Origin: a virus
Reading direction: 5' to 3' (one strand)
Length of the DNA stretch: 36,501 nt
Virus record (IMG/VR): IMGVR_UViG_3300030103_006075
Coordinates: 1 to 36,501 of that record
Positions 18,048 through 35,715 of the stretch are shown piece after piece. Made by a program: the position numbers and the translations under genes. Each line of letters opens with the position of its first letter. The first letter of the stretch is position 1. The notes beneath the pieces are model-generated. The model was not told the DNA's origin and searched no databases. It saw only the letters and a program-made list of their open reading frames with translations.

Positions 18048-18054
18048 ATAGCAT

Positions 18055-18079
18055 AAAAAAAGGAGGGTTTCAACCCTCC
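18055..18079 (-). terminator. Strong intrinsic terminator after the DUF4278 gene
   Basis: The minus strand forms GGAGGGT-TGAA-ACCCTCC (7-bp stem, 4-nt loop; 18079-18062) followed by T7 (18061-18055). It is 5 nt past the stop of the 47-aa gene. This is the clearest intrinsic terminator in the window. Confidence 0.9.
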
Positions 18080-18084
18080 CTGTA

Positions 18085-18228
18085 TTAACTGCAAGGTGAT
18101 GCCTTGCTTTTAACCTTAAGACCACGATACATTAAATCGTGTCTTTCACGCTTTGCTGCTTCCGCAACAACTTTTGCGTTGTACTCTTCAGTGTCATACT
18201 CGACACCACGATAAGTGACTGTTGCCAT
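18085..18228 (-). CDS. 47-aa DUF4278-like protein under riboswitch-type leader
   Basis: The product begins MATVTYRGVEYDTEEYNAKV and continues VAEAAKRERHDLMYRGLKVK. TYRGVxYD at the start and a second YRG are the pattern of DUF4278, small proteins common in cyanobacteria and cyanophages, of unknown function. GAGGA lies 7 nt before the ATG. Upstream are two tandem aptamer-like RNAs, a promoter and an NtcA-type box; downstream is a strong terminator. The gene therefore forms a one-gene unit with elaborate control. Its last codons form a hairpin (GCAAGG/CCTTGC, 18091-18107). By analogy with 'Downstream-peptide' leaders, which precede short frames of about 17-100 aa in cyanobacteria, it is probably a small regulator or inhibitor made according to glutamine level. 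That function is inference. Confidence 0.85.
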   Translation of the reverse strand: MATVTYRGVEYDTEEYNAKVVAEAAKRERHDLMYRGLKVKSKASPCS

Positions 18229-18260
18229 TGGTTTTTCCTCGGTAGTAGGGGTTTTAATCC

Positions 18261-18301
18261 CGTTCCTTCAGTCAACTGTGCGTCCTCAAAGAGGATGAAC
18301 G
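18261..18301 (-). ncRNA. Glutamine riboswitch-like aptamer, copy B (proximal)
   Basis: The minus strand has P1 CGTTC...GAACG closing two inner hairpins: TCCTC-TTT-GAGGA and CAG-TTGA-CTG, with GACGCA between and AAG before the closing strand. This is the three-way-junction outline of glnA/Downstream-peptide (glutamine-binding) RNAs: CGUUCAUCC...GGACG...CUGAAGGAACG. It ends 32 nt before the ATG of the 47-aa gene. Confidence 0.7.
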
Positions 18302-18304
18302 ATC

Positions 18305-18345
18305 CGTTCCGAGTCGGCTTACTTGCGTCCCTAGTGGGATGAACG
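18305..18345 (-). ncRNA. Glutamine riboswitch-like aptamer, copy A (distal)
   Basis: This is a tandem partner of copy B with the same CGTTCATCC...GGACGCA...GACT...GGAACGG frame and a 3-nt linker. The hairpins are TCCC-ACTA-GGGA and CCG-ACT-CGG. It keeps the GCAAGTAAG side of the consensus but lacks the AAG before the closing strand that copy B has. One copy may thus be weaker, or the two may act together. Confidence 0.68.
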
Positions 18346-18347
18346 TT

Positions 18348-18363
18348 GTGTTAATTCTAACAC
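18348..18363 (-). other. 5'-end hairpin of the leader RNA
   Basis: The minus strand reads GTGTTAGAATTAACAC, a perfect 6-bp stem with a GAAT loop. It starts at the position predicted for transcription start from the -10 at 18375-18370 and ends 2 nt before aptamer A. It probably caps and stabilises the leader RNA. Confidence 0.6.
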
Positions 18364-18369
18364 ATTCAT

Positions 18370-18405
18370 ATTATATAGGCAAGTAAAACTGTAATATCTG
18401 TTACA
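18370..18405 (-). promoter_or_regulatory. NtcA-type box and -10 element upstream of the aptamers
   Basis: The palindrome TGTAACAGATATTACA (18405-18390, minus strand) matches the NtcA consensus GTA-N8-TAC with both outer bases (TGTA...TACA). TATAAT (18375-18370) lies 15 nt downstream, and no -35 hexamer is present at the right distance, as in NtcA-activated promoters. The spacing is shorter than the usual 20-24 nt; a weaker TATGAA lies at exactly 20. NtcA activates cyanobacterial nitrogen genes when 2-oxoglutarate is high. Confidence 0.65.
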
Positions 18406-19922: not shown

Positions 19923-19930
19923 TATTTATT
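19923..19930 (-). promoter_or_regulatory. Late-type promoter box AATAAATA before glutaredoxin
   Basis: The minus strand reads AATAAATA, matching cyanophage NATAAATA, 16 nt before the glutaredoxin ATG and overlapping the 3' end of the carbamoyltransferase gene. Confidence 0.45.
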
Positions 19931-21611
19931 TGATTTTGGTAATTAAGAAATTGTTAATTATCAGGTAATCCAAATCTATATTATTAAAGGTGTCAACTGC
20001 ATCCTTTGGTGTTTCAATAATAGGTTGACCATTATCATTAAAGGATGTATTAAGTAATATCGGACAACCAGTTTTTTCACGATACTTTTGTAACAATGTC
20101 GTAACTTCTGGATGTAATTTTTTATTCACAGTTTGGATTCGACATGTACCATCTTGATGTGTGATTGCACCAATGTTTTTTCTTTGATGTGGTTTTACAA
20201 CCAATGAATATAACATATACTCGTTAGGATAATCCTCTTGGAAATATTCTTTCTGATATTCTTCGAGCATAATACCTGCAAATGGTCTCCACTCTTCACG
20301 ATGTTTGATCCGTGAGTTTACGATGTCCTTATTCTTCTTTGGTTGTGGGTTCATAAGTATCGACCTTGATCCAAGCGCTCTTGGTCCGAACTCAGAACGA
20401 TTCTGAAACCACCCTATGATCTTGTTCTGTGCAAGTAAGTCAGCAGTCACCTCACATAGTTCATCAAAGTTATCGTACTTCTTATACTGCGTCTCAGACA
20501 CTGCCTCTTGGACTTCCTCTTCATCATAAGTCTTACCAAACAAAGAGATGTTATGTGGTAGAGTGACCTGTCCTTTGTTTCGGAAGACTCCATAGGCAGC
20601 AGCTCCGAATGACAGTCCTGTGTCATCAGGGAAAGGTGGTATGTGTATGTTCTCTGTAATCTCATTCTTTCTTAAAACAGAGTTGGCAAGTATGTTTAGA
20701 AAGACTCCACCCGCAAGACATAAATTATCCTCAATATATCCTTCCTTCTTCAGTTCTTTCATCCACTCAAGCATTCCCTGTTCAAAGTTATGCTGAAGTT
20801 GCTTTGCCTTATTCTCTGGTGAAAGATTGCCGTAGTTAAAGTCACGACCAGGAAATGATTCTAGTGCAACCTGTGGCATACCTTCAAAGTGTGTTCTCCA
20901 ATCTTTCTTAAACTCTTTAATGTTTCCATAGGCAGAAAGACCCATCACCTTACCACAGAAAGTTTCTCTATATTTGGGATCTGTAAGTTGTATATCTTTA
21001 CCAATCTTGTTAACATAAATGTGATATGCCCACATCCAATAATAGTTTCCTAGATTATTTGTTTGAGGAATACCAGCATAGTATTTAAATATATTTCTAC
21101 TCTTATCAAAATGTCCGAAGGAATGATTCTCACAAGCAAATATATTTCCTGTAGTATCAAACAAAACTGATCCTGCATTATCAAGTGTCAAAAATGATCC
21201 TTCATTATAATCACAGGAGAATACAGAAGAGTATGCGTGACATAGATGATGTGATACTATCTGCACCTTTGCATTAGGGAAATATCTTTTTACCTTCTTC
21301 TCAATTGTCTTATTAATATAGTTCTTATAGAATTGTTGATTCGCCATTGATGGAACAATAACTAAATCAATATCATTCTTATCTAAGTTTCCTGCTGACA
21401 GACAATACTCAATGGACTTTCTCGGAAAGTTACCATCATATTTAATTTTACTTAATCTCTCTTCACTAATACTAACACAGTGCTCACCATCCTTAATCAG
21501 AGTTACACTTGCACCATGAGTCCAAGAATCCTCTGATTGTTTTAAAAGTTTTGGATTGTCAGAAATTAAAACATTCCAACCAATCGCACCATAAAGTCCA
21601 ATTACATTCAT
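19926..21611 (-). CDS. NodU/CmcH-family carbamoyltransferase
   Basis: This is a 561-aa protein with the two-domain layout of O-carbamoyltransferases. The N-terminal Kae1-like domain contains the metal and carbamoyl-phosphate motif HHLCHAYSSVF (121-131) with D144 in LTLDNAG. LAGGVFLNILANSVLRKN follows, as does the C-terminal carbamoyl-transfer region RSEFGPRALGSRSILMNP, then EEWRPFAGIMLEEY and PILLNTSFNDNGQPII. It moves a carbamoyl group from carbamoyl phosphate to a hydroxyl, normally on a sugar or antibiotic. The ATG overlaps the glycosyltransferase stop (ATGA), so the pair probably acts on one glycan. The target, host or virion, is not evident. Confidence 0.92.
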   Translation of the reverse strand: MNVIGLYGAIGWNVLISDNPKLLKQSEDSWTHGASVTLIKDGEHCVSISEERLSKIKYDGNFPRKSIEYCLSAGNLDKNDIDLVIVPSMANQQFYKNYINKTIEKKVKRYFPNAKVQIVSHHLCHAYSSVFSCDYNEGSFLTLDNAGSVLFDTTGNIFACENHSFGHFDKSRNIFKYYAGIPQTNNLGNYYWMWAYHIYVNKIGKDIQLTDPKYRETFCGKVMGLSAYGNIKEFKKDWRTHFEGMPQVALESFPGRDFNYGNLSPENKAKQLQHNFEQGMLEWMKELKKEGYIEDNLCLAGGVFLNILANSVLRKNEITENIHIPPFPDDTGLSFGAAAYGVFRNKGQVTLPHNISLFGKTYDEEEVQEAVSETQYKKYDNFDELCEVTADLLAQNKIIGWFQNRSEFGPRALGSRSILMNPQPKKNKDIVNSRIKHREEWRPFAGIMLEEYQKEYFQEDYPNEYMLYSLVVKPHQRKNIGAITHQDGTCRIQTVNKKLHPEVTTLLQKYREKTGCPILLNTSFNDNGQPIIETPKDAVDTFNNIDLDYLIINNFLITKIK

Positions 21612-27159: not shown

Positions 27160-30100
27160 TTAAGACGTATACTTTATCCAAATGTCACCATCACTTCCGC
27201 CACTTGGAGCCGATGTGGATGTGGTGATTTTTCTGTGTCCATTTGCACTTGATGCAGCACTGGTTGCCTGAACACATCCACCAATGACAACGTTATAGGA
27301 ACTGTCACCAGTAATCCAATTAGAAGAACCACAACCAATGACAAGTTGTGCACTACCAGTTGCAGAGGCAACATCCGCATTAGGACCAATTACTACGTTA
27401 GAACCACCAGTTGTAATACTATCACCTGCACAATATCCCAAGAGGATGTTAGCACCACCTGAAGTTAGATTAAGTCCTGCACACATTCCAATTGCGATAG
27501 TATAATCACCAGTAGCACAAGTAGATCCATCACTACATCCTGCTCCAGCTTTTGTACCTATAAAGACACTATTATCACTACCAGAAGCCTTAATACCAGC
27601 ATAACATCCAACGAAGACACTATTATTAGTACTAGTACTATATCTACCAGCACCATTACCTATGAAGACATTATCGTGTCTTCCACTTGACTGAATTCTA
27701 CCAGCTGTATTTCCGATATAAACATTACGGTAACCAGTCTGATCATCTCTTCCTGCATGTCTTCCAAATTGTACGTTATAACAACCAGTGGTATTAGCAC
27801 ATCCTGCATAATATCCAGCAAAAACATTACAACCACCATTTGTGGTTATATAACGACCAGCATTTGTTCCGAGAGCAACGTTATGTGATGCTCCTGTAGC
27901 CTCGGAACCTGCATTACATCCAAGAAAAACATTTTTGATTCCAGTGGTAATTTTTTTACCTGCATGATATCCAAATGCAACGTTATAAGAACCTGATCCG
28001 CCTGTTCCAGCACATTGTCCAGCATAATATCCTATAAAGGTGTTGTGATTACCACAAGATTTTTCTCCAGCTCCTTGACCGATGAAAACTCTCGAATTTC
28101 CTGCAGTTGGGCATTTACCTGCACCAAGACCAAACATTACATTATAACAACCAGATACGTTAGCACATCCAGCTGAGTATCCACCAAAGAAATTAGTTTT
28201 ACCAGTTGTGGTATTTCGACCTGCATTATTTCCTATGATGACGTTGAAATCACCAGCGTCTAATTTACAAGCTGCACATTGACCAATGGCAACGTTACAA
28301 AGGGAGTTAGAAGTGGAACAAGCACCAGCACTTGTACCAGCATATAAGTTTCCTTGTGAGTCTGGTGAGAATCCTGCTCCACCGCCTCCACCACCGTTGA
28401 GTTGGTTGCCATCCTTGTCGTAGATGTTATATGAACTGTCACCATAAATCCATTTATTTGCTCCGATGCCAATCGCCATTTGATTATTACCAGTGGTAGA
28501 TGGTAATTGTATATTACATCCAATTGCAACGTTATTATCTCCTGCTGTTGAGCATCGAGCAGCATATTTACCTACAAATGTATTTCCACTTTCACCACCT
28601 GTAATACATCTTCCTGCTCTAACTCCTATTATGGTATTATTATCACCAGATGTAGCTTCACCATAAGATTCAAAACCAAAGAAGGCATTGTAATTACCAC
28701 TAGTAATAAATTTTCCAGCACGAGATCCTACATAAGTGCTTGATTGAGTACTGTTGTTAGAACAATATGCTGCACAAGTACCAACCACTGTGTTCATCCA
28801 ACCATTGGTACCAGTCATAGAATATGCAGCTCTACTACCAACTGCAATTAAACTGTTGTAGCAGTAAGTTCTTGCAGCTTCACATCCAATGAAAACGTTA
28901 GCTGAGAAATTACCATTATTACCACATTTTCCTGCACCACATCCAATTACAACATTACAACCACCCCCACTAGTTCCTGATGCAACAGATCCATATCCAG
29001 CACACTTTCCTATGAAAACATTCGCACTACCATCTACTAAACAATGACCTGCATTACATCCTAAGATGATATTATCTTCAGCACTAACATTTAAACAACA
29101 TCCAGCACAAGTTCCATCAGAAACCAAGTTAGTGCTTTGGACTAACTTCAAGCAACCACCTGATCCACCGCCACCGCCTCCACCGTTGAGTTGGTTACCA
29201 TCCTTATCATAAATGTTAAAGTTACTGTCACCACAGATCCACTTACTACCTCCAACACCAATAATAAATTGTTTATCACCAGTAGCTGATGCCACCTGAG
29301 TATTATATCCAATAACAACATTACACTCACCATCTGTAATGGTGCATCCAGCACACTTACCAATGGCAATGTTACCACAACCACATTGTAATTTGTCTAA
29401 AACATAATATCCCATTCCAATATTATGTGATGTGCAACACATATAACCACTACTACCACCATTATTAGCAGCATAATATCCCATTAAAATATTATTACTA
29501 TTTCCTGTTCCATGGTATGCAACACTATTTCCAAAATAAATGTTATTACTACCACCACAGTTACAATATCCAGAATACTCACCAATAGCAATATTATTAT
29601 CACCACCACATAGTTTAGTATATGCTAATTGTCCCACCACAAAGTTATGATTTGCACCACTACCAGTATATCCAGCTTGATAACCAGCTATAAAGTTATG
29701 AGTTCCATTAGTATTTCCACCCGCTGGATTAACACCTAAGTAAACGTTACAATAACCAGTGCCACTATATCCAGGACCAGCATTATATCCAATCTGAACG
29801 TTTTTATATCCAGTGGTATTTCCTTTTCCTGCGTAAGCTCCTATGAATACATTATTATCACCCGATAGATTCGCTACACCAGCACAGCATCCGATATAAA
29901 CATTATTATCACCAGCACAATCAGCAGTTCCTGCCTTATAACCTAAGAAGATATTAAAGCAAGTATCTGCGTCTTTAGATGCACCAGCACTAGTACCTGC
30001 TGTTAAGTTCTCTTGTCCATCTGGTGAGAATCCCCCACCACCTCCTCCAGAAGCAGTCCATTTAATGGCACTACCAGTTGAACTTAATACCTGACCACTA

Positions 30101-33100
30101 GATCCAGTGGCTCCATCACAATCAATAATACCAGCGCCTGGTTTAATGTGATAAGAACTATTACCAGTTAACCAATAGTTTCCTTCAACTCCAATTGCCA
30201 GTTGAGTACTACCAGTTGCAGAGGCAACACAAGTATTTTTACCAATTGCCACATTATCAGATCCAGTTGTTATGTTACAACCTGCACCGTAACCAATTGT
30301 GACGTTATCACATCCAGTTGTTATATTGTAACCTGAAGCATAACCAAGTGCAGTGTTACATCTTCCTTCAAGATAATTAAGTGCTTGCATACCAACAGCA
30401 ACGTTCATTCCACCACTTCCAGCGGTACGACATGCCGTGTCTGCCCCAATAAAGATATTGCGATTACCAGTTTGTTTATATCCACCTGCCCATCCCATTG
30501 CAATATTATGTTCACCTACACACTTACCTGCATAAGGACCTATTGCGATATTATAATGATTACTAACACTACTTCCTGCAGCGTAACCCATTATAACATT
30601 ATGACTATGTGTTGTTAGATTATATGCAGCAAAACCCATTATGATATTATCACCACCCGTGGTTAACTGTGGTGCTGCTCGATATCCAAGAAGAACATTA
30701 CCACCACCAGATGAAAGTCCACAACCAGCCTTACATCCGATTGCAACGTTGTTAGCACCTGTTAGACCACCAGAATCACCACATCCTGCATACATACCCA
30801 TGAAAATATTTTCGTATCCAGTGGTAGAATTTCTTCCTGCCTGACATCCAATGAAAACGTTTTTATCACCACTTGTTTGATCTTGACCTGCACAAGTTCC
30901 TAGTATGATATTGTCAGTCGCACCAGAGAAATTACATCCAGAACAAGATCCATCAGAAACATAGTTTCTATCTGCTACTAACTTCAGGCAACCACCTGAT
31001 CCACCGCCACCAGAAATACCAGTTAGTGCAGAACCATCACCATATAATTTGTATGCAGATACAATACCAACACTTATTTTACTTGTAAGTCCGACACCAA
31101 CCGCATTATCTGGTGCTGTTGTTCCAATACCCACAAGAGTCTCACCAGCGGCATTTCTACATCCAACAATCCAATGAACACATCGTGCATTTGGATCTGA
31201 ATCATAAGCACAAACACCAATTACTAATTGTTTATCTGCTGTGGCAGATGGTAATAATGCTCTAACACCTATCGCAATGTTACCATCACCACAACACATG
31301 TTTGATCCTGCACGAGTTCCAAAATAAGAATTATAATTTCCACCACACTTTTGTTCGTGAGCTGTATATTTTCCAACAAATACGTTACCACTACCTCCAA
31401 TAAAGCATCTTCCCGCACAGGCACCTATCATAGTATTGCTATTACCAGTCGCACATATTCCAGCACTCTGTCCAAAGTAGGCATTGTATGTTCCACCAGT
31501 CGCACACTTACCAGCGTCTCTACCAACGTATGTGTTAAGTTGTCCTGTAACACTACAGTATCCAGCACAGTTTCCAATGATTACACTATTCCAACCATAA
31601 GTTTGGTTCATAGAATATGAAGCCTTGTTACCTATGGCTATCATACTATTAAATACATGATTGTATCCAGCACATTCACCAATTATTATATTACTACCAC
31701 CACCACTTCCATTTCCTAAGGCTTTATAACCTATGGCAACTTCTTTTGAAGCTGTGGTTGCGAGAATTCCTGCAGTATATCCGAAGAATACGTTATAATC
31801 ACCACTGGTAACACTCTTTCCAGCACAAGTTCCTAATATGATATTGTCAGTTGCACCAGAGAAATTACATCCAGAACAAGATCCATCAGAAACATAGTTT
31901 CTAGTTGCGACTAACTTCAGGCAACCACCTGATCCACCACCACCGCCAGAAGCAGCAACCCACTTAACATAGGCACCAGTTGAACTTAAGACCTGACCAT
32001 TACTTCCGACAGAACCAGTGCAATCAGTAATACCTTTTCCTGGTTTGATGTTGAATGAACTATCACCAGTAATCCAGTAATTGGTTGTGATACCGATTCC
32101 CAACTGAGTCGGACAATTTCCACCAGTTAAAGGAGGTTGTATTGAGTTTCCGATTAATATAACATCTCTTCCACACCAAGACTGCATTGAACCATGAGCA
32201 GATGGTTGTCCGTGTCCAATGATTATATTACAACAACTTTGACTACCTGACATACAGTAACCAGAACACATTCCAATGAATATTGATCCTGGACTATTTT
32301 GAGTACTACCTGCATGTCCACCAACTCCAACTGCTTGGTCTCCACCTTGATTAAGTGCATTTGCACCAAAGGCAGTTACATGGTTACCACTACCTGAATG
32401 GAAAGCCTGACATCCTACGGCAGTTGACCATTCAGTGTTACCTATACATCTCCCTGCACAAACACCAATGAAAACTGAATCATGCATATATGCATTGTTA
32501 CCACCAAGAGCTGATCCACCTGCACAATATCCCAAGACAACATTGCAACCATATGGTCCAAATGAATACTGGGAAACACCCGCATGTGCTTTGTATCCCA
32601 TTACAATATTGTAATGTCCACAATCATTACAGCAAGATGAGTCAAAACCAATCGATATATTATAACATCCAGTTGTATTAGCTAATCCAGCATTTCTACC
32701 AAGAAAAATGTTATCCTGACCTGTACAACCTGGACTAGCTGCTCCAGGAGCTGAATTTTTACCTGCACAACGACCTATAAAAATATTATCGTCTGCCGTA
32801 CCACTTAGATCACATCCAGAGCAAGATCCATCAGAAACATAGTTACCAGTACCTATTAACTTCAGGCAACCACCTGATCCACCACCAGAGATACCAGTTA
32901 AGTTTGAACCATCACCATAAAGTTGATAGGCAGATAAGATACCAACTGATAACTTCTTAGTATTTCCTGAAGTTACTGCTGCGTTTGGATTTGTAGTTCC
33001 GATACCGACATTATAATCACTATTACCAACAATCCAATTATTAGCAGCAATACCAATTGATAATTGATAATTATCAGTTCCTCCCCAATGAGCACCAGCA

Positions 33101-35715
33101 CCACAACCGAGTGCGACGTTATATGAACCTGTGGTGTTACATTGACCAGCATGCTTTCCAATAAAGACATTTCTACCACCTGATGTATTGCAAATTCCAG
33201 CAGAGGCTCCAAACATAGCATTGTAACCACCACTCGAAATCTTTAATCCAGCGCTTACGCCAATCACTGCGTTTTGACCACCACTTGTTATGCATTTACC
33301 TGCATCAGCACCTACAAAAACATTAGCACTACCAATTATCTGGTTAGCATTTCCACCGAAACCAGCCTGACTACCAATTGCAATATTAGAAAAAGCAGTA
33401 TTGCAAACATTTTTACCAGCACCTGCTCCAATGTAAACTGAACTCTGACCCTCCCTGACTCTGCAACCAGTAAGATCTCCTATAAAAACACCTGAACATA
33501 CACAGGTACCTGCACCATTGTCTCCACCATAAAGTGCCTGATTACCTAATGCAATATTAAATTGACCACGACAGAACTTTCTTGCTACTTCATTACCAAT
33601 GAATAGGTTACACTTATTTCCAACAGAACATTCACCTGCCTTCTTACCAATTATTATATTTTCTTCACCAGTTGTCTCTGATGCTCCAGCACAGAAACCA
33701 AAGAAGAGATTATAGTTACCAGATGTGACTGCCTTTCCTGCACCCACACCGATAGCAAAATTTCGATCACCTGCACAGTTAGCCTTCAGTGCATCATCAC
33801 CTATACCAATGTTAAAGCATGTATCAGCATCGGACGCTGCACCAGCATCAGTACCAGCATATAAGTTTTGTTGATCGTCTGGTGTGAAACCACCACCAGT
33901 AATTGTTACCGTGGCAATACCAGCAGATCCAGTTGTTGCAGTGACCGCAACAGCACTACCAGCAAAATTAATACAGGATATGCTACCAGCAGTACCAACT
34001 GTGGATCCCTCATCCTGAATTGTTAATCCACCAATCGCACCAGTTCCTGATGCAGTAATACCAGTCAGACATGAACCATCACCACAGAACTTGGTTGCAC
34101 AGAAGATACCACCAGAATTCATTGCCTTGATAGTGGATCCTGCTAGGCATACGTTAAAGGAATTGTCACCAGTGATCCAACGATCTGTTGCATTACCAAT
34201 CGCAAGTTGACAATTGCTTATCGCAGAGGGAGCTTGCACTTGAGTACCAATTAAAATATTTCTTTGACCAGATGTGACTGCACATCCTGATTGTCTTCCA
34301 AGTAATACGTTATAACTACCACTTGTGATTGCAAATCCACTTCCCTCACCTATGGATACGTTGCTACCACCAGTATTACTACCTGGTGAGCTACTACCCA
34401 TCATTGCACAATGTCCTAGAGCAACGTTATCGTCACCACCAGACTGACCCATGCATCGACCAGATCCACATCCAATATATACATTTCTCCTTCCTATCTT
34501 ATTACAATAACCTGCATTTGTTCCAATGAAAACATCATTATTCGCACAACATATGGCATATCCTGCTGCTTGTCCAATGGCAACATTATTATATCCTGTT
34601 GCACCAGATGAAAATCCAAGTCCTGCACTATGACCAACGTATATATTTTGATATCCAGTGGTAACACATTTACCTGCACTCTTTCCAATCAAAAGGTTAT
34701 CATTACCAGAGGCTATACAATTACCACTATTTTGACCCAGAGCAATGTTATGAGTACCAGTTACAACACCAGTTCCTAATGACTTACAACCGATTGCAAT
34801 ATTTTCACATCCAGTTGACAAATTTTGACCAGAAGTTTTTCCTAGGAAAACATTATATAAACCAGACGTAATGGACATACCCGCCTCTTGTCCCAACCCA
34901 ATATTATTAGTAGCACCTTGTGCATTGCACAATGCCTTACAACCAATTGCAATGTTACCATTACCTGAAGTGATTTTTCTACCTGCTTCTGTACCAAACA
35001 AAACATTATGTGAACCAGTGGTCAAGTTCCGTCCAGAGAAATCTCCTAATGCAATATTAGCATTTCCTGTTAATGCAGTTGCACTAGAACCGAGAGCACA
35101 TCTACCTATTGAGATGTTGCAACATCCAGTTGTGTTGTTACACCCTGCATACCATCCAACAAAATGATTGTGACAACCACTGGTATTTTTATATCCAGCT
35201 CTCATACCAATGAAGGTATTACATCCACCACTATCGTTCTCTTCACCTGCCTGACCAAAGAATACGTTATAATCTCCACTTGTTGTATTCTGTCCTGCAG
35301 CACATCCTATAAAGACGTTTCTATTAGCACTATTAACCTTACATCCAGCTTTATGTCCAAGCGCTACGTTATTTTCTGCTGAACCACTAGCACACTTACC
35401 AGCATCTGTACCAGCGAATAAGTTTTCTTTTGCGTCTGGTGTGAATCCTGCATCAATACCAGTTAAACAAGCTCCGCTTCCAAAGAAACAAGTAGCAGTT
35501 ACAGAGTTAATTCCAGATATATTTGTCGAACTATCACCAATTATATTTCCATTCGCAGTTATATTTCCCGTAAAAGTAGATGCACCACCAACCGTAAAAT
35601 TTGTACTTATTGCAACTTTGTTGGCATTTAAGTTTAAGTCACCCTGACTATCAATGGACGGGGTTCCACTACCTAATATATTCAGTTGCCTTACGCCAAA
35701 ACTTTTATCTGCCAT
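27160..35715 (-). CDS. Giant Cys-rich solenoid repeat protein, eight modules (2851 aa)
   Basis: The gene spans 8.6 kb and begins MADKSFGVRQLNILGSGTPS. Most of the protein is a repeat of about 17 residues, consensus N-V-x-I-G-x-x-A-G-x-x-x-T-T-G-x-x, with well over a hundred units, like a YadA-head-type beta-roll. These are packed into eight modules. Each has a header, either GF(T/S)PDxQxNLxAGT (modules 1, 2, 6, 8) or GGCLKLVxxxxYVSDGSCSGC (3, 4, 5, 7). Each closes with a 'QLxIG...WIxGDSSYNI' cap; linkers are polyGly, GIGTTNP or DKDGNQLNGG. The C-terminus ends SAPSGGSDGDIWIKYTS. Cysteines recur at set positions (IGxCAGxC). I infer a virion fibre or adhesin. TATAAATA lies 13 nt upstream; no clear ribosome site is seen. 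Neighbouring modules share near-identical DNA. Confidence 0.85.
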   Translation of the reverse strand: MADKSFGVRQLNILGSGTPSIDSQGDLNLNANKVAISTNFTVGGASTFTGNITANGNIIGDSSTNISGINSVTATCFFGSGACLTGIDAGFTPDAKENLFAGTDAGKCASGSAENNVALGHKAGCKVNSANRNVFIGCAAGQNTTSGDYNVFFGQAGEENDSGGCNTFIGMRAGYKNTSGCHNHFVGWYAGCNNTTGCCNISIGRCALGSSATALTGNANIALGDFSGRNLTTGSHNVLFGTEAGRKITSGNGNIAIGCKALCNAQGATNNIGLGQEAGMSITSGLYNVFLGKTSGQNLSTGCENIAIGCKSLGTGVVTGTHNIALGQNSGNCIASGNDNLLIGKSAGKCVTTGYQNIYVGHSAGLGFSSGATGYNNVAIGQAAGYAICCANNDVFIGTNAGYCNKIGRRNVYIGCGSGRCMGQSGGDDNVALGHCAMMGSSSPGSNTGGSNVSIGEGSGFAITSGSYNVLLGRQSGCAVTSGQRNILIGTQVQAPSAISNCQLAIGNATDRWITGDNSFNVCLAGSTIKAMNSGGIFCATKFCGDGSCLTGITASGTGAIGGLTIQDEGSTVGTAGSISCINFAGSAVAVTATTGSAGIATVTITGGGFTPDDQQNLYAGTDAGAASDADTCFNIGIGDDALKANCAGDRNFAIGVGAGKAVTSGNYNLFFGFCAGASETTGEENIIIGKKAGECSVGNKCNLFIGNEVARKFCRGQFNIALGNQALYGGDNGAGTCVCSGVFIGDLTGCRVREGQSSVYIGAGAGKNVCNTAFSNIAIGSQAGFGGNANQIIGSANVFVGADAGKCITSGGQNAVIGVSAGLKISSGGYNAMFGASAGICNTSGGRNVFIGKHAGQCNTTGSYNVALGCGAGAHWGGTDNYQLSIGIAANNWIVGNSDYNVGIGTTNPNAAVTSGNTKKLSVGILSAYQLYGDGSNLTGISGGGSGGCLKLIGTGNYVSDGSCSGCDLSGTADDNIFIGRCAGKNSAPGAASPGCTGQDNIFLGRNAGLANTTGCYNISIGFDSSCCNDCGHYNIVMGYKAHAGVSQYSFGPYGCNVVLGYCAGGSALGGNNAYMHDSVFIGVCAGRCIGNTEWSTAVGCQAFHSGSGNHVTAFGANALNQGGDQAVGVGGHAGSTQNSPGSIFIGMCSGYCMSGSQSCCNIIIGHGQPSAHGSMQSWCGRDVILIGNSIQPPLTGGNCPTQLGIGITTNYWITGDSSFNIKPGKGITDCTGSVGSNGQVLSSTGAYVKWVAASGGGGGSGGCLKLVATRNYVSDGSCSGCNFSGATDNIILGTCAGKSVTSGDYNVFFGYTAGILATTASKEVAIGYKALGNGSGGGSNIIIGECAGYNHVFNSMIAIGNKASYSMNQTYGWNSVIIGNCAGYCSVTGQLNTYVGRDAGKCATGGTYNAYFGQSAGICATGNSNTMIGACAGRCFIGGSGNVFVGKYTAHEQKCGGNYNSYFGTRAGSNMCCGDGNIAIGVRALLPSATADKQLVIGVCAYDSDPNARCVHWIVGCRNAAGETLVGIGTTAPDNAVGVGLTSKISVGIVSAYKLYGDGSALTGISGGGGSGGCLKLVADRNYVSDGSCSGCNFSGATDNIILGTCAGQDQTSGDKNVFIGCQAGRNSTTGYENIFMGMYAGCGDSGGLTGANNVAIGCKAGCGLSSGGGNVLLGYRAAPQLTTGGDNIIMGFAAYNLTTHSHNVIMGYAAGSSVSNHYNIAIGPYAGKCVGEHNIAMGWAGGYKQTGNRNIFIGADTACRTAGSGGMNVAVGMQALNYLEGRCNTALGYASGYNITTGCDNVTIGYGAGCNITTGSDNVAIGKNTCVASATGSTQLAIGVEGNYWLTGNSSYHIKPGAGIIDCDGATGSSGQVLSSTGSAIKWTASGGGGGGFSPDGQENLTAGTSAGASKDADTCFNIFLGYKAGTADCAGDNNVYIGCCAGVANLSGDNNVFIGAYAGKGNTTGYKNVQIGYNAGPGYSGTGYCNVYLGVNPAGGNTNGTHNFIAGYQAGYTGSGANHNFVVGQLAYTKLCGGDNNIAIGEYSGYCNCGGSNNIYFGNSVAYHGTGNSNNILMGYYAANNGGSSGYMCCTSHNIGMGYYVLDKLQCGCGNIAIGKCAGCTITDGECNVVIGYNTQVASATGDKQFIIGVGGSKWICGDSNFNIYDKDGNQLNGGGGGGGSGGCLKLVQSTNLVSDGTCAGCCLNVSAEDNIILGCNAGHCLVDGSANVFIGKCAGYGSVASGTSGGGCNVVIGCGAGKCGNNGNFSANVFIGCEAARTYCYNSLIAVGSRAAYSMTGTNGWMNTVVGTCAAYCSNNSTQSSTYVGSRAGKFITSGNYNAFFGFESYGEATSGDNNTIIGVRAGRCITGGESGNTFVGKYAARCSTAGDNNVAIGCNIQLPSTTGNNQMAIGIGANKWIYGDSSYNIYDKDGNQLNGGGGGGAGFSPDSQGNLYAGTSAGACSTSNSLCNVAIGQCAACKLDAGDFNVIIGNNAGRNTTTGKTNFFGGYSAGCANVSGCYNVMFGLGAGKCPTAGNSRVFIGQGAGEKSCGNHNTFIGYYAGQCAGTGGSGSYNVAFGYHAGKKITTGIKNVFLGCNAGSEATGASHNVALGTNAGRYITTNGGCNVFAGYYAGCANTTGCYNVQFGRHAGRDDQTGYRNVYIGNTAGRIQSSGRHDNVFIGNGAGRYSTSTNNSVFVGCYAGIKASGSDNSVFIGTKAGAGCSDGSTCATGDYTIAIGMCAGLNLTSGGANILLGYCAGDSITTGGSNVVIGPNADVASATGSAQLVIGCGSSNWITGDSSYNVVIGGCVQATSAASSANGHRKITTSTSAPSGGSDGDIWIKYTS
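30890..31011 (-). repeat. 122-bp direct repeat in the 2851-aa gene, copy 1
   Basis: This is about 95% identical (6 mismatches by eye) to 31823-31944 and encodes the module 5 header (GGCLKLV...SDGSCSGC) with its first repeat. The two copies lie 933 bp apart, a whole number of codons, so recombination would delete or duplicate one module in frame. Confidence 0.8.
31823..31944 (-). repeat. 122-bp direct repeat in the 2851-aa gene, copy 2
   Basis: Partner of 30890-31011; it encodes the module 4 header. Weaker copies of the same header lie near 29100 and 32850. Confidence 0.8.

Follow-up and report, generated by a model that had tools for sequence, protein, structure and literature searches.

A probable composite glutamine riboswitch with interlocked halves upstream of a DUF4278-like gene in a T4-like cyanophage

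Identification of the element

Within a 36,501-nucleotide stretch of viral DNA (IMG/VR record IMGVR_UViG_3300030103_006075; hereafter, the window) we have analyzed two short repeats, copy A and copy B, that lie upstream of a small gene. We interpret the element as a probable composite glutamine riboswitch with interlocked parts that, in a T4-like cyanophage, most likely acts as a translational ON switch for a DUF4278 protein. The repeats most likely each supply half of a single interlocked RNA in which two glutamine pockets may form. Its motifs and pairing are best described by a single glutamine-I aptamer that carries, in helix P3, another pocket in circularly permuted order. The flanking genes (thymidylate synthase, PhoH and baseplate proteins), together with the nearest records (P-TIM68, P-SSM2 and the single-cell viruses AG-345), assign the window to a T4-like cyanophage. 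Elsewhere on its minus strand, the window encodes a 561-aa NolO-like carbamoyltransferase (phrog_1601; 19926-21611) and a 2851-aa open reading frame that is possibly a large structural protein (27160-35715).

An earlier note on this DNA had described two 41-nt units, read as tandem glutamine aptamers of the glnA/Downstream-peptide type. The units were confirmed at 18345..18261 on the minus strand, joined by GAT (Table 1). An Rfam search of the entire window at gathering score returned no match, and a permissive search gave two matches below threshold. Against RF01739, copy B scored 34.6 bits over 18303..18257 (E 5.9e-4 for the whole window; cut-off 35) and copy A scored 23.6 bits over 18347..18305 (E 0.63), which likewise does not reach the gathering score of 35. 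The RF01704 scores of the two units, 29.0 and 22.7 bits, lie below the gathering score of 33. Homologous loci in P-TIM68 (L123) and AG-345-P14 (L126) exceed the RF01739 gathering score with 35.4 and 37.8 bits, respectively. A covariance model of the whole composite unit, whose training set includes the window itself, matched end to end at 18345..18257 with 98.4 bits and matched nothing else in the window.

The glutamine-riboswitch part of the proposed family assignment is supported by the RF01739 match of copy B, sub-cut-off as it is, and the Downstream-peptide part has to be given up. Membership of RF01704 was rejected on the alignment of copy B, in which the pseudoknot stem P2 after GAACGG is largely mispaired (six positions, or three pairs, are non-standard). 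The note had suggested that its reading would fall if covariance models found no match and related phages showed no covariation. The models were run, with a best match under the curated cut-off of 35, and covariation among related phages proved strong; the joint absence of the two was not what we observed. The placement of a glutamine-riboswitch-type RNA ahead of a small phage gene also holds, the ATG of a 47-aa open reading frame being located 32 nt downstream of the RNA.

Table 1 Features of the riboswitch locus in the window
Feature	Position	Strand	Evidence or remark
NtcA-box-like palindrome GTA-N8-TAC, upstream of promoter	18391..18404	.	exact match
Promoter-like -35 TTGCCT / 17 nt / -10 TAGAAT	18354..18382	-	consensus scan, weak by itself
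Copy A	18345..18305	-	41 nt, CGTTCATCCCACTAGGGACGCAAGTAAGCCGACTCGGAACG
P1 5' strand CGTTC, copy A	18345-18341	-	composite fold and covariation
P2A	18339-18336 with 18331-18328	-	composite fold and covariation
CGCA of copy A	18327-18324	-	composite fold and covariation
Loop E 5' strand AAGTA, copy A	18324-18320	-	composite fold and covariation
P3 5' strand AGCCGACT, copy A	18319-18312	-	composite fold and covariation
Inner P1 strand GAACG, copy A	18309-18305	-	composite fold and covariation
Linker GAT	18302..18304	-	first base G18304; predicted partner C18280 in copy B (inner pocket)
Copy B	18301..18261	-	41 nt, CGTTCATCCTCTTTGAGGACGCACAGTTGACTGAAGGAACG
CGTTC of copy B	18301-18297	-	RF01739 34.6 bits; composite model 98.4 bits
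P2B	18295-18291 with 18287-18283	-	RF01739 and composite model
CGCA of copy B	18282-18279	-	RF01739 and composite model
P3 3' strand AGTTGACT, copy B	18277-18270	-	RF01739 and composite model
Junction GAAG, copy B	18269-18266	-	RF01739 and composite model
Outer P1 3' strand GAACG, copy B	18265-18261	-	RF01739 and composite model
Base N' (G) after outer P1	18260	-	predicted pair with C18325 of copy A (outer pocket)
Shine-Dalgarno GAGG of 47-aa gene	18237..18240	-	sequence; predicted largely paired in ligand-free ensemble
47-aa DUF4278-like gene, MATVTYRGVEYDTEEYNAKVVAEAAKRERHDLMYRGLKVKSKASPCS	18085..18228	-	phrog_5049 E 5e-22; PF14105 E 4e-5
Intrinsic terminator directly after gene	18050..18081	-	9-bp stem and T run

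Composite fold of the two repeats

Helices P1 and P2 with CGTTC/GAACG are present as in the RF01739 glutamine-I RNA. Loop E, however, is split: its 5' half AAGTA occurs only in copy A, which ends in C-GGAACG, and its 3' half only in copy B, which lacks AAGTA and ends in GAAGGAACG. No single copy contains a complete loop E (AAGTA plus GAA) with a local P3, since P3 spans the copies. By its motif content, then, neither copy is a complete glutamine-I aptamer alone, and A and B together supply the full glutamine-I set. The earlier note had traced the differences between the copies to junction residues; the copies do differ, but more widely than by junction variation, with the halves of loop E divided between them.

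In the proposed fold, the 5' strand of copy A would pair with the 3' strand of copy B as outer P1, followed by P2A. The AAGTA of A would then stand opposite the GAAG of B as loop E, with P3 formed by the A and B strands listed in Table 1 (18319-18312 with 18277-18270). Within P3, the GAACG of A would pair with the CGTTC of B and lead into P2B, generating a circularly permuted second junction. This inner junction would carry the pocket bases of the glutamine riboswitches. In the window, seven of the eight P3 pairs are formed, with one C.A mismatch.

Comparison of related sequences supports this structure well. Helix P3 shows compensatory changes between A and B in about 200 related phage loci (among the matches listed). 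AGTCG of A faces CGACT of B, AGTCA faces TGACT, and S-TIM4 and P-RSM4 carry the variant ATTCG/CGAAT. In a longer form, AGCCGAC[T/A/G] of A pairs with [A/T/C]G..GACT of B, with U-A, A-U or G-C predominating at position 8. In a subset chosen without regard to B, P3 was paired in 83% over five positions and 79% over eight, versus 10-40% in slid registers; in the less biased subset the pairing exceeded that of 5000 of 5000 shuffles and every slid register. Composite pair counts reached 98%, versus 26-57% when slid, with the qualification that all covariation counts include related sequences and that the collections were fetched by patterns. RNAalifold, applied to 26 unaltered sequences without the fold being supplied, returned the composite with outer P1 (A5'/B3') and the inner GAACG/CGTTC hairpin. 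When the RNA was simply folded together with its downstream sequence, outer P1 rarely formed. Because P1 is invariant, the choice of partner for its strands was made from P3, the long-range pair and the energies.

In the pocket of glutamine-I and -II riboswitches, two bases form a long-range pair that lies past the P1-equivalent helix (PMC6698751). The pair involves CG[N]A and the nucleotide following GAACG in the consensus sequences, a rule that single canonical aptamers also follow. The outer pair, between the N of CG[N]A in A and the base after the GAACG of B, is compatible throughout the less biased subset (110 of 110 units), with nine cases swapped from C:G to G:C, and also in 109 of 109 unique cores. 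The corresponding inner pair, between the CG[N]A of B and the linker base after the GAACG of A, is compatible in 107 of 109 unique cores. Two rare composites, L029 and L076, have a linker that does not begin with G and an inner pair that is G:C (swapped) and G.U, respectively.

These pairs bear directly on the tandem reading of the earlier note. Two autonomous glutamine aptamers in a row, each complete with P1, P2 and P3, would give a steeper response, as Weinberg et al. 2010 stated for some glnA RNAs. Each copy does contain CGTTC/GAACG and P2, RF01739 matches each separately, and tandem glnA RNAs are on record (PMC2864571). We nonetheless consider independent tandem aptamers unlikely. Each copy has only part of P3 and of loop E, and the covariation runs between copies; a complete pocket and P3 were not found in each unit, as judged by the cross-copy P3 and long-range pairs. 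The local long-range pairs of the tandem model would be mismatched as G.G in nine of the 110 units and as C.C in nine, and for all 42 compact sequences compared the composite was the more stable of the two folds. One relative (L160) lacks the CGTTCA of B, yet keeps the 3' half of that copy. Since A and B are connected through P3, through the strands of loop E and through the long-range pair of the pocket, the suggestion that two separate aptamers might differ in affinity has been set aside in favor of the composite fold.

Glutamine pockets

In the composite fold the outer junction, and perhaps the inner one too, would bind glutamine, as their motifs suggest. The two sites could act together because P3 is shared. 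The same composite fold also accommodates a reading with one functional, outer pocket, which differs solely on the second pocket and treats the inner junction as a structural cap and a scaffold for P3 and for the open reading frames embedded in relatives. It is a serious contender, to which we give somewhat less than even credence. The inner junction is without a loop E and its linker is just 3 nt long, L160 has lost the 5' half of this junction, and two units have A.G at the inner long-range position. Against a purely structural role, the pocket bases of the inner site are all kept in nearly all units, and the inner pair has changed along with the linker base in both L029 and L076.

Variant riboswitches with altered specificity are known in general. 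The composite might accordingly sense another ligand (another amino acid, a protein or a phage RNA) on a kept glutamine-riboswitch skeleton. This appears quite improbable: none of the pocket bases named in PMC6698751 has been lost, and in hosts the gene family found downstream is under glutamine control.

Downstream gene and its control

The 47-aa protein carries two YRG motifs and scored 24.3 bits against PF14105 (E 4e-5), slightly under the gathering score of 25.3; close relatives exceed that cut-off with 28.2 and 32.0. A tblastn search with this protein matched 44 cyanophage records, and among solved structures no significant relative was found. In the at least 206 phage units collected, 195 have a YRG-bearing or MNT-type product downstream, one further unit has YRG, two have a different product and eight gave no call. 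The MNT-type product shows the same YRG motifs and a weak DUF4278 match. Nearly all collected units place the downstream start codon 31-39 nt after the RNA. In the window a terminator immediately follows the gene, and the unit therefore looks monocistronic. In P-TIM40 (L132), a strong manA RNA (RF01745, 141.7 bits) was observed at 1703-1897, between the DUF4278 gene and talC.

Cyanobacterial DUF4278 genes are the main partners of glutamine riboswitches, and IF17, the glutamine synthetase inactivating factor, has DUF4278 as its N-terminal part (PMC6316151). A single aptamer, glutamine-I or -II, was present in 10 of 17 host DUF4278 loci. The 47-aa protein, as a relative of the N-terminal part of IF17, would act on host nitrogen assimilation. 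The link of the phage protein to IF17 is remote, and according to a review the N-terminal part is dispensable for IF17 function (PMC6316151).

Glutamine-I and -II riboswitches are ON switches (PMC6316151, PMC6698751), and the same direction of control may apply to the phage RNA. In the glutamine-free state, the ribosome-binding site would be paired with the 3' junction or with early codons; glutamine binding would hold those strands in the aptamer and the 47-aa protein would be made. In relatives, the sequence CT[R]AAG would mask the Shine-Dalgarno sequence in the absence of ligand and would be held by the aptamer in its presence. The R of CT[R]AAGG and the Y of TT[Y]AGGAG, located before the downstream gene, form A-T, G-C or G-T combinations and never A-C (AT 31, GC 24, GT 15 and AC 0 in the less biased set, counted again without the loci fetched by a second DNA pattern that partly fixed these bases). 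On a tree of the embedded open reading frames described below, about 13 branches show a joint AT-to-GC change, an approximate figure from a short and poorly resolved tree. This covariation between the junction and the Shine-Dalgarno region suggests translational control. The window itself is without the conserved CT[A/G]AAG x CTT[T/C]AG mask, and its Shine-Dalgarno context, CCGAGG, is predicted to pair elsewhere. The masking step is consequently weakest for the window copy, where masking is predicted through other pairing. Enforcing the composite in folding calculations did not clearly free the Shine-Dalgarno sequence.

Transcription is predicted to start a few bases upstream of copy A. A promoter pattern of the form TTG..-N15-19-TA...T directly precedes A in 171 of 195 unique upstream sequences. 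GTAN8TAC is the NtcA consensus used for cyanophages (PMC3037559). It occurs 10 times in the window, with 7.7 expected by chance. In relatives, 113 of the 195 unique upstream sequences have it ahead of A, usually at a distance of 43-47 nt, compared with about 7 predicted by shuffling. An NtcA-type site combined with glutamine sensing would put the gene under two nitrogen signals.

Open reading frames inside the aptamer of relatives

The window represents a compact form, with no open reading frame in either P2 loop. In the at least 206 units, an open reading frame was found in P2B in 138, in both P2 loops in 21, in P2A only in three and in neither in 44, frequencies that depend on the search patterns. 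The P2B frame, phrog_504 (T4-GC 430), lies wholly in the P2 loop of the second half (for example in L129, L131, L136 and L279). The ATG of this frame comes 9-11 nt into copy B; with few exceptions the frame terminates at a TAA or TGA in the junction, 10 nt short of where B ends. The P2A frame, phrog_6471 (T4-GC 429), occupies the P2 loop of the first half in a subset of relatives. A weak tblastn match of the phrog_6471 protein was also observed in the 45-kb cyanophage genome P-GSP1 (HQ332140.1, 41588-41722).

Pairing of P2 is kept across the embedded frame, more weakly so in a second analysis in which one of 5000 shuffles was as good. Over CGCA, the codons are GAC in 67 of 67 frames and GCA in 67 of 67, versus 23% and 40% inside the frame, counting only frames not fetched by the sequence of that end. 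This codon fixation indicates that the RNA is constrained where gene and aptamer overlap. For T4-like cyanophages as a group, we regard as evenly balanced between right and wrong a broader reading in which these RNAs form an interlocked riboswitch class, with two glutamine pockets sharing one helix and two P2 loops acting as gene slots (none, one or both filled), the start codon in an aptamer helix and the stop at or near the junction. Glutamine binding and translation of the embedded gene would be mutually exclusive and the downstream DUF4278 gene would be switched oppositely, giving a three-gene, metabolite-controlled RNA device.

Distribution and comparison with known systems

The composite was found in all 23 named cyanophages examined (isolates or single-cell genomes), with two compact, 13 carrying one open reading frame and eight carrying two, and on this basis it looks widespread among cyanophages. 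A chance match, or an inert remnant of a host riboswitch, would agree with copy scores just under the Rfam cut-offs. Such an origin is very hard to credit for an element that is conserved and covarying across the approximately 200 listed phage loci and present in every named genome examined.

The composite model found nothing in about 290 cyanobacterial genomes except one cyanophage-like contig, and a 23-letter pattern did not find the composite in 121 genomes. A host origin of the composite was rejected on its absence from the cyanobacterial genomes searched other than the phage-like contig. In a large genome collection, five of 37 listed pattern matches had the motif context, all in cyanophage-looking contigs: L276 (Prochlorococcus AG-418-C09, a 189-kb contig), L266 (Nonlabens), L253, L267 and L274. 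L276 aligns to P-HM1-like phages and therefore looks like cyanophage DNA in a host assembly; the phage alignment was made for this contig, and the other four look similar. Ordinary single or true tandem glnA aptamers were observed in other viral contigs (L012, L017, L036 and L060), L036 having two complete glnA aptamers in a row; these contigs can serve as controls.

The phage composite shares with the glutamine-I riboswitch (glnA RNA, RF01739) the P1 strands CGTTC/GAACG, P2, CG[N]A-AGTA, GAAGGAACG and the pocket long-range pair, and both stand upstream of DUF4278 genes. Unlike glutamine-I, the phage RNA spreads these parts over two repeats, each under the gathering score alone, and its P3 contains a second, permuted junction. 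With glutamine-II (Downstream-peptide RNA, RF01704) it shares a CGTTCA, CGCA and GAACG-G core and a position before a small DUF4278-like gene, as glutamine-II precedes short DUF4278 genes in marine picocyanobacteria; it differs in having loop E strands instead, the glutamine-II pseudoknot stem being largely mispaired in the window. Tandem riboswitches, noted for glnA RNAs (PMC2864571), likewise have two repeats of the same aptamer per leader, but the phage units are interdigitated, with pocket-forming strands contributed by different repeats.

A gene in the loop of a folded RNA is also a feature of group I introns, in which open reading frames for homing endonucleases sit in peripheral loops of the structured RNA. 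The RNA of the phage relatives differs in that it is not self-splicing and in that the start and stop codons lie within aptamer helices and junctions.

In the passages compared, previous reports describe glutamine riboswitches in phages Melnitz, Mosig and AG-345-P14 (PMC9004378) and in S-CREM1 and other cyanophages (PMC9964418), as predicted riboswitches with possible gene control. These are glnA-type RNAs of marine phages, and AG-345-P14 has a direct homologue of the window locus. Neither paper, in those passages, mentions the composite fold, a second pocket or open reading frames in the aptamer. Among the papers cited here, we found no earlier account of the composite fold or of frames inside it.

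Interleaved repeats with a shared P3 and use of a second glutamine pocket would constitute a new riboswitch architecture, and the double pocket around a shared P3 is a natural candidate for cooperative sensing. Genes nested in the aptamer would couple translation directly to ligand sensing. An NtcA-type promoter site and a glutamine switch here precede a relative of the glutamine synthetase inactivating factor, and the element makes it testable how cyanophages sense, and perhaps influence, the nitrogen status of their hosts.
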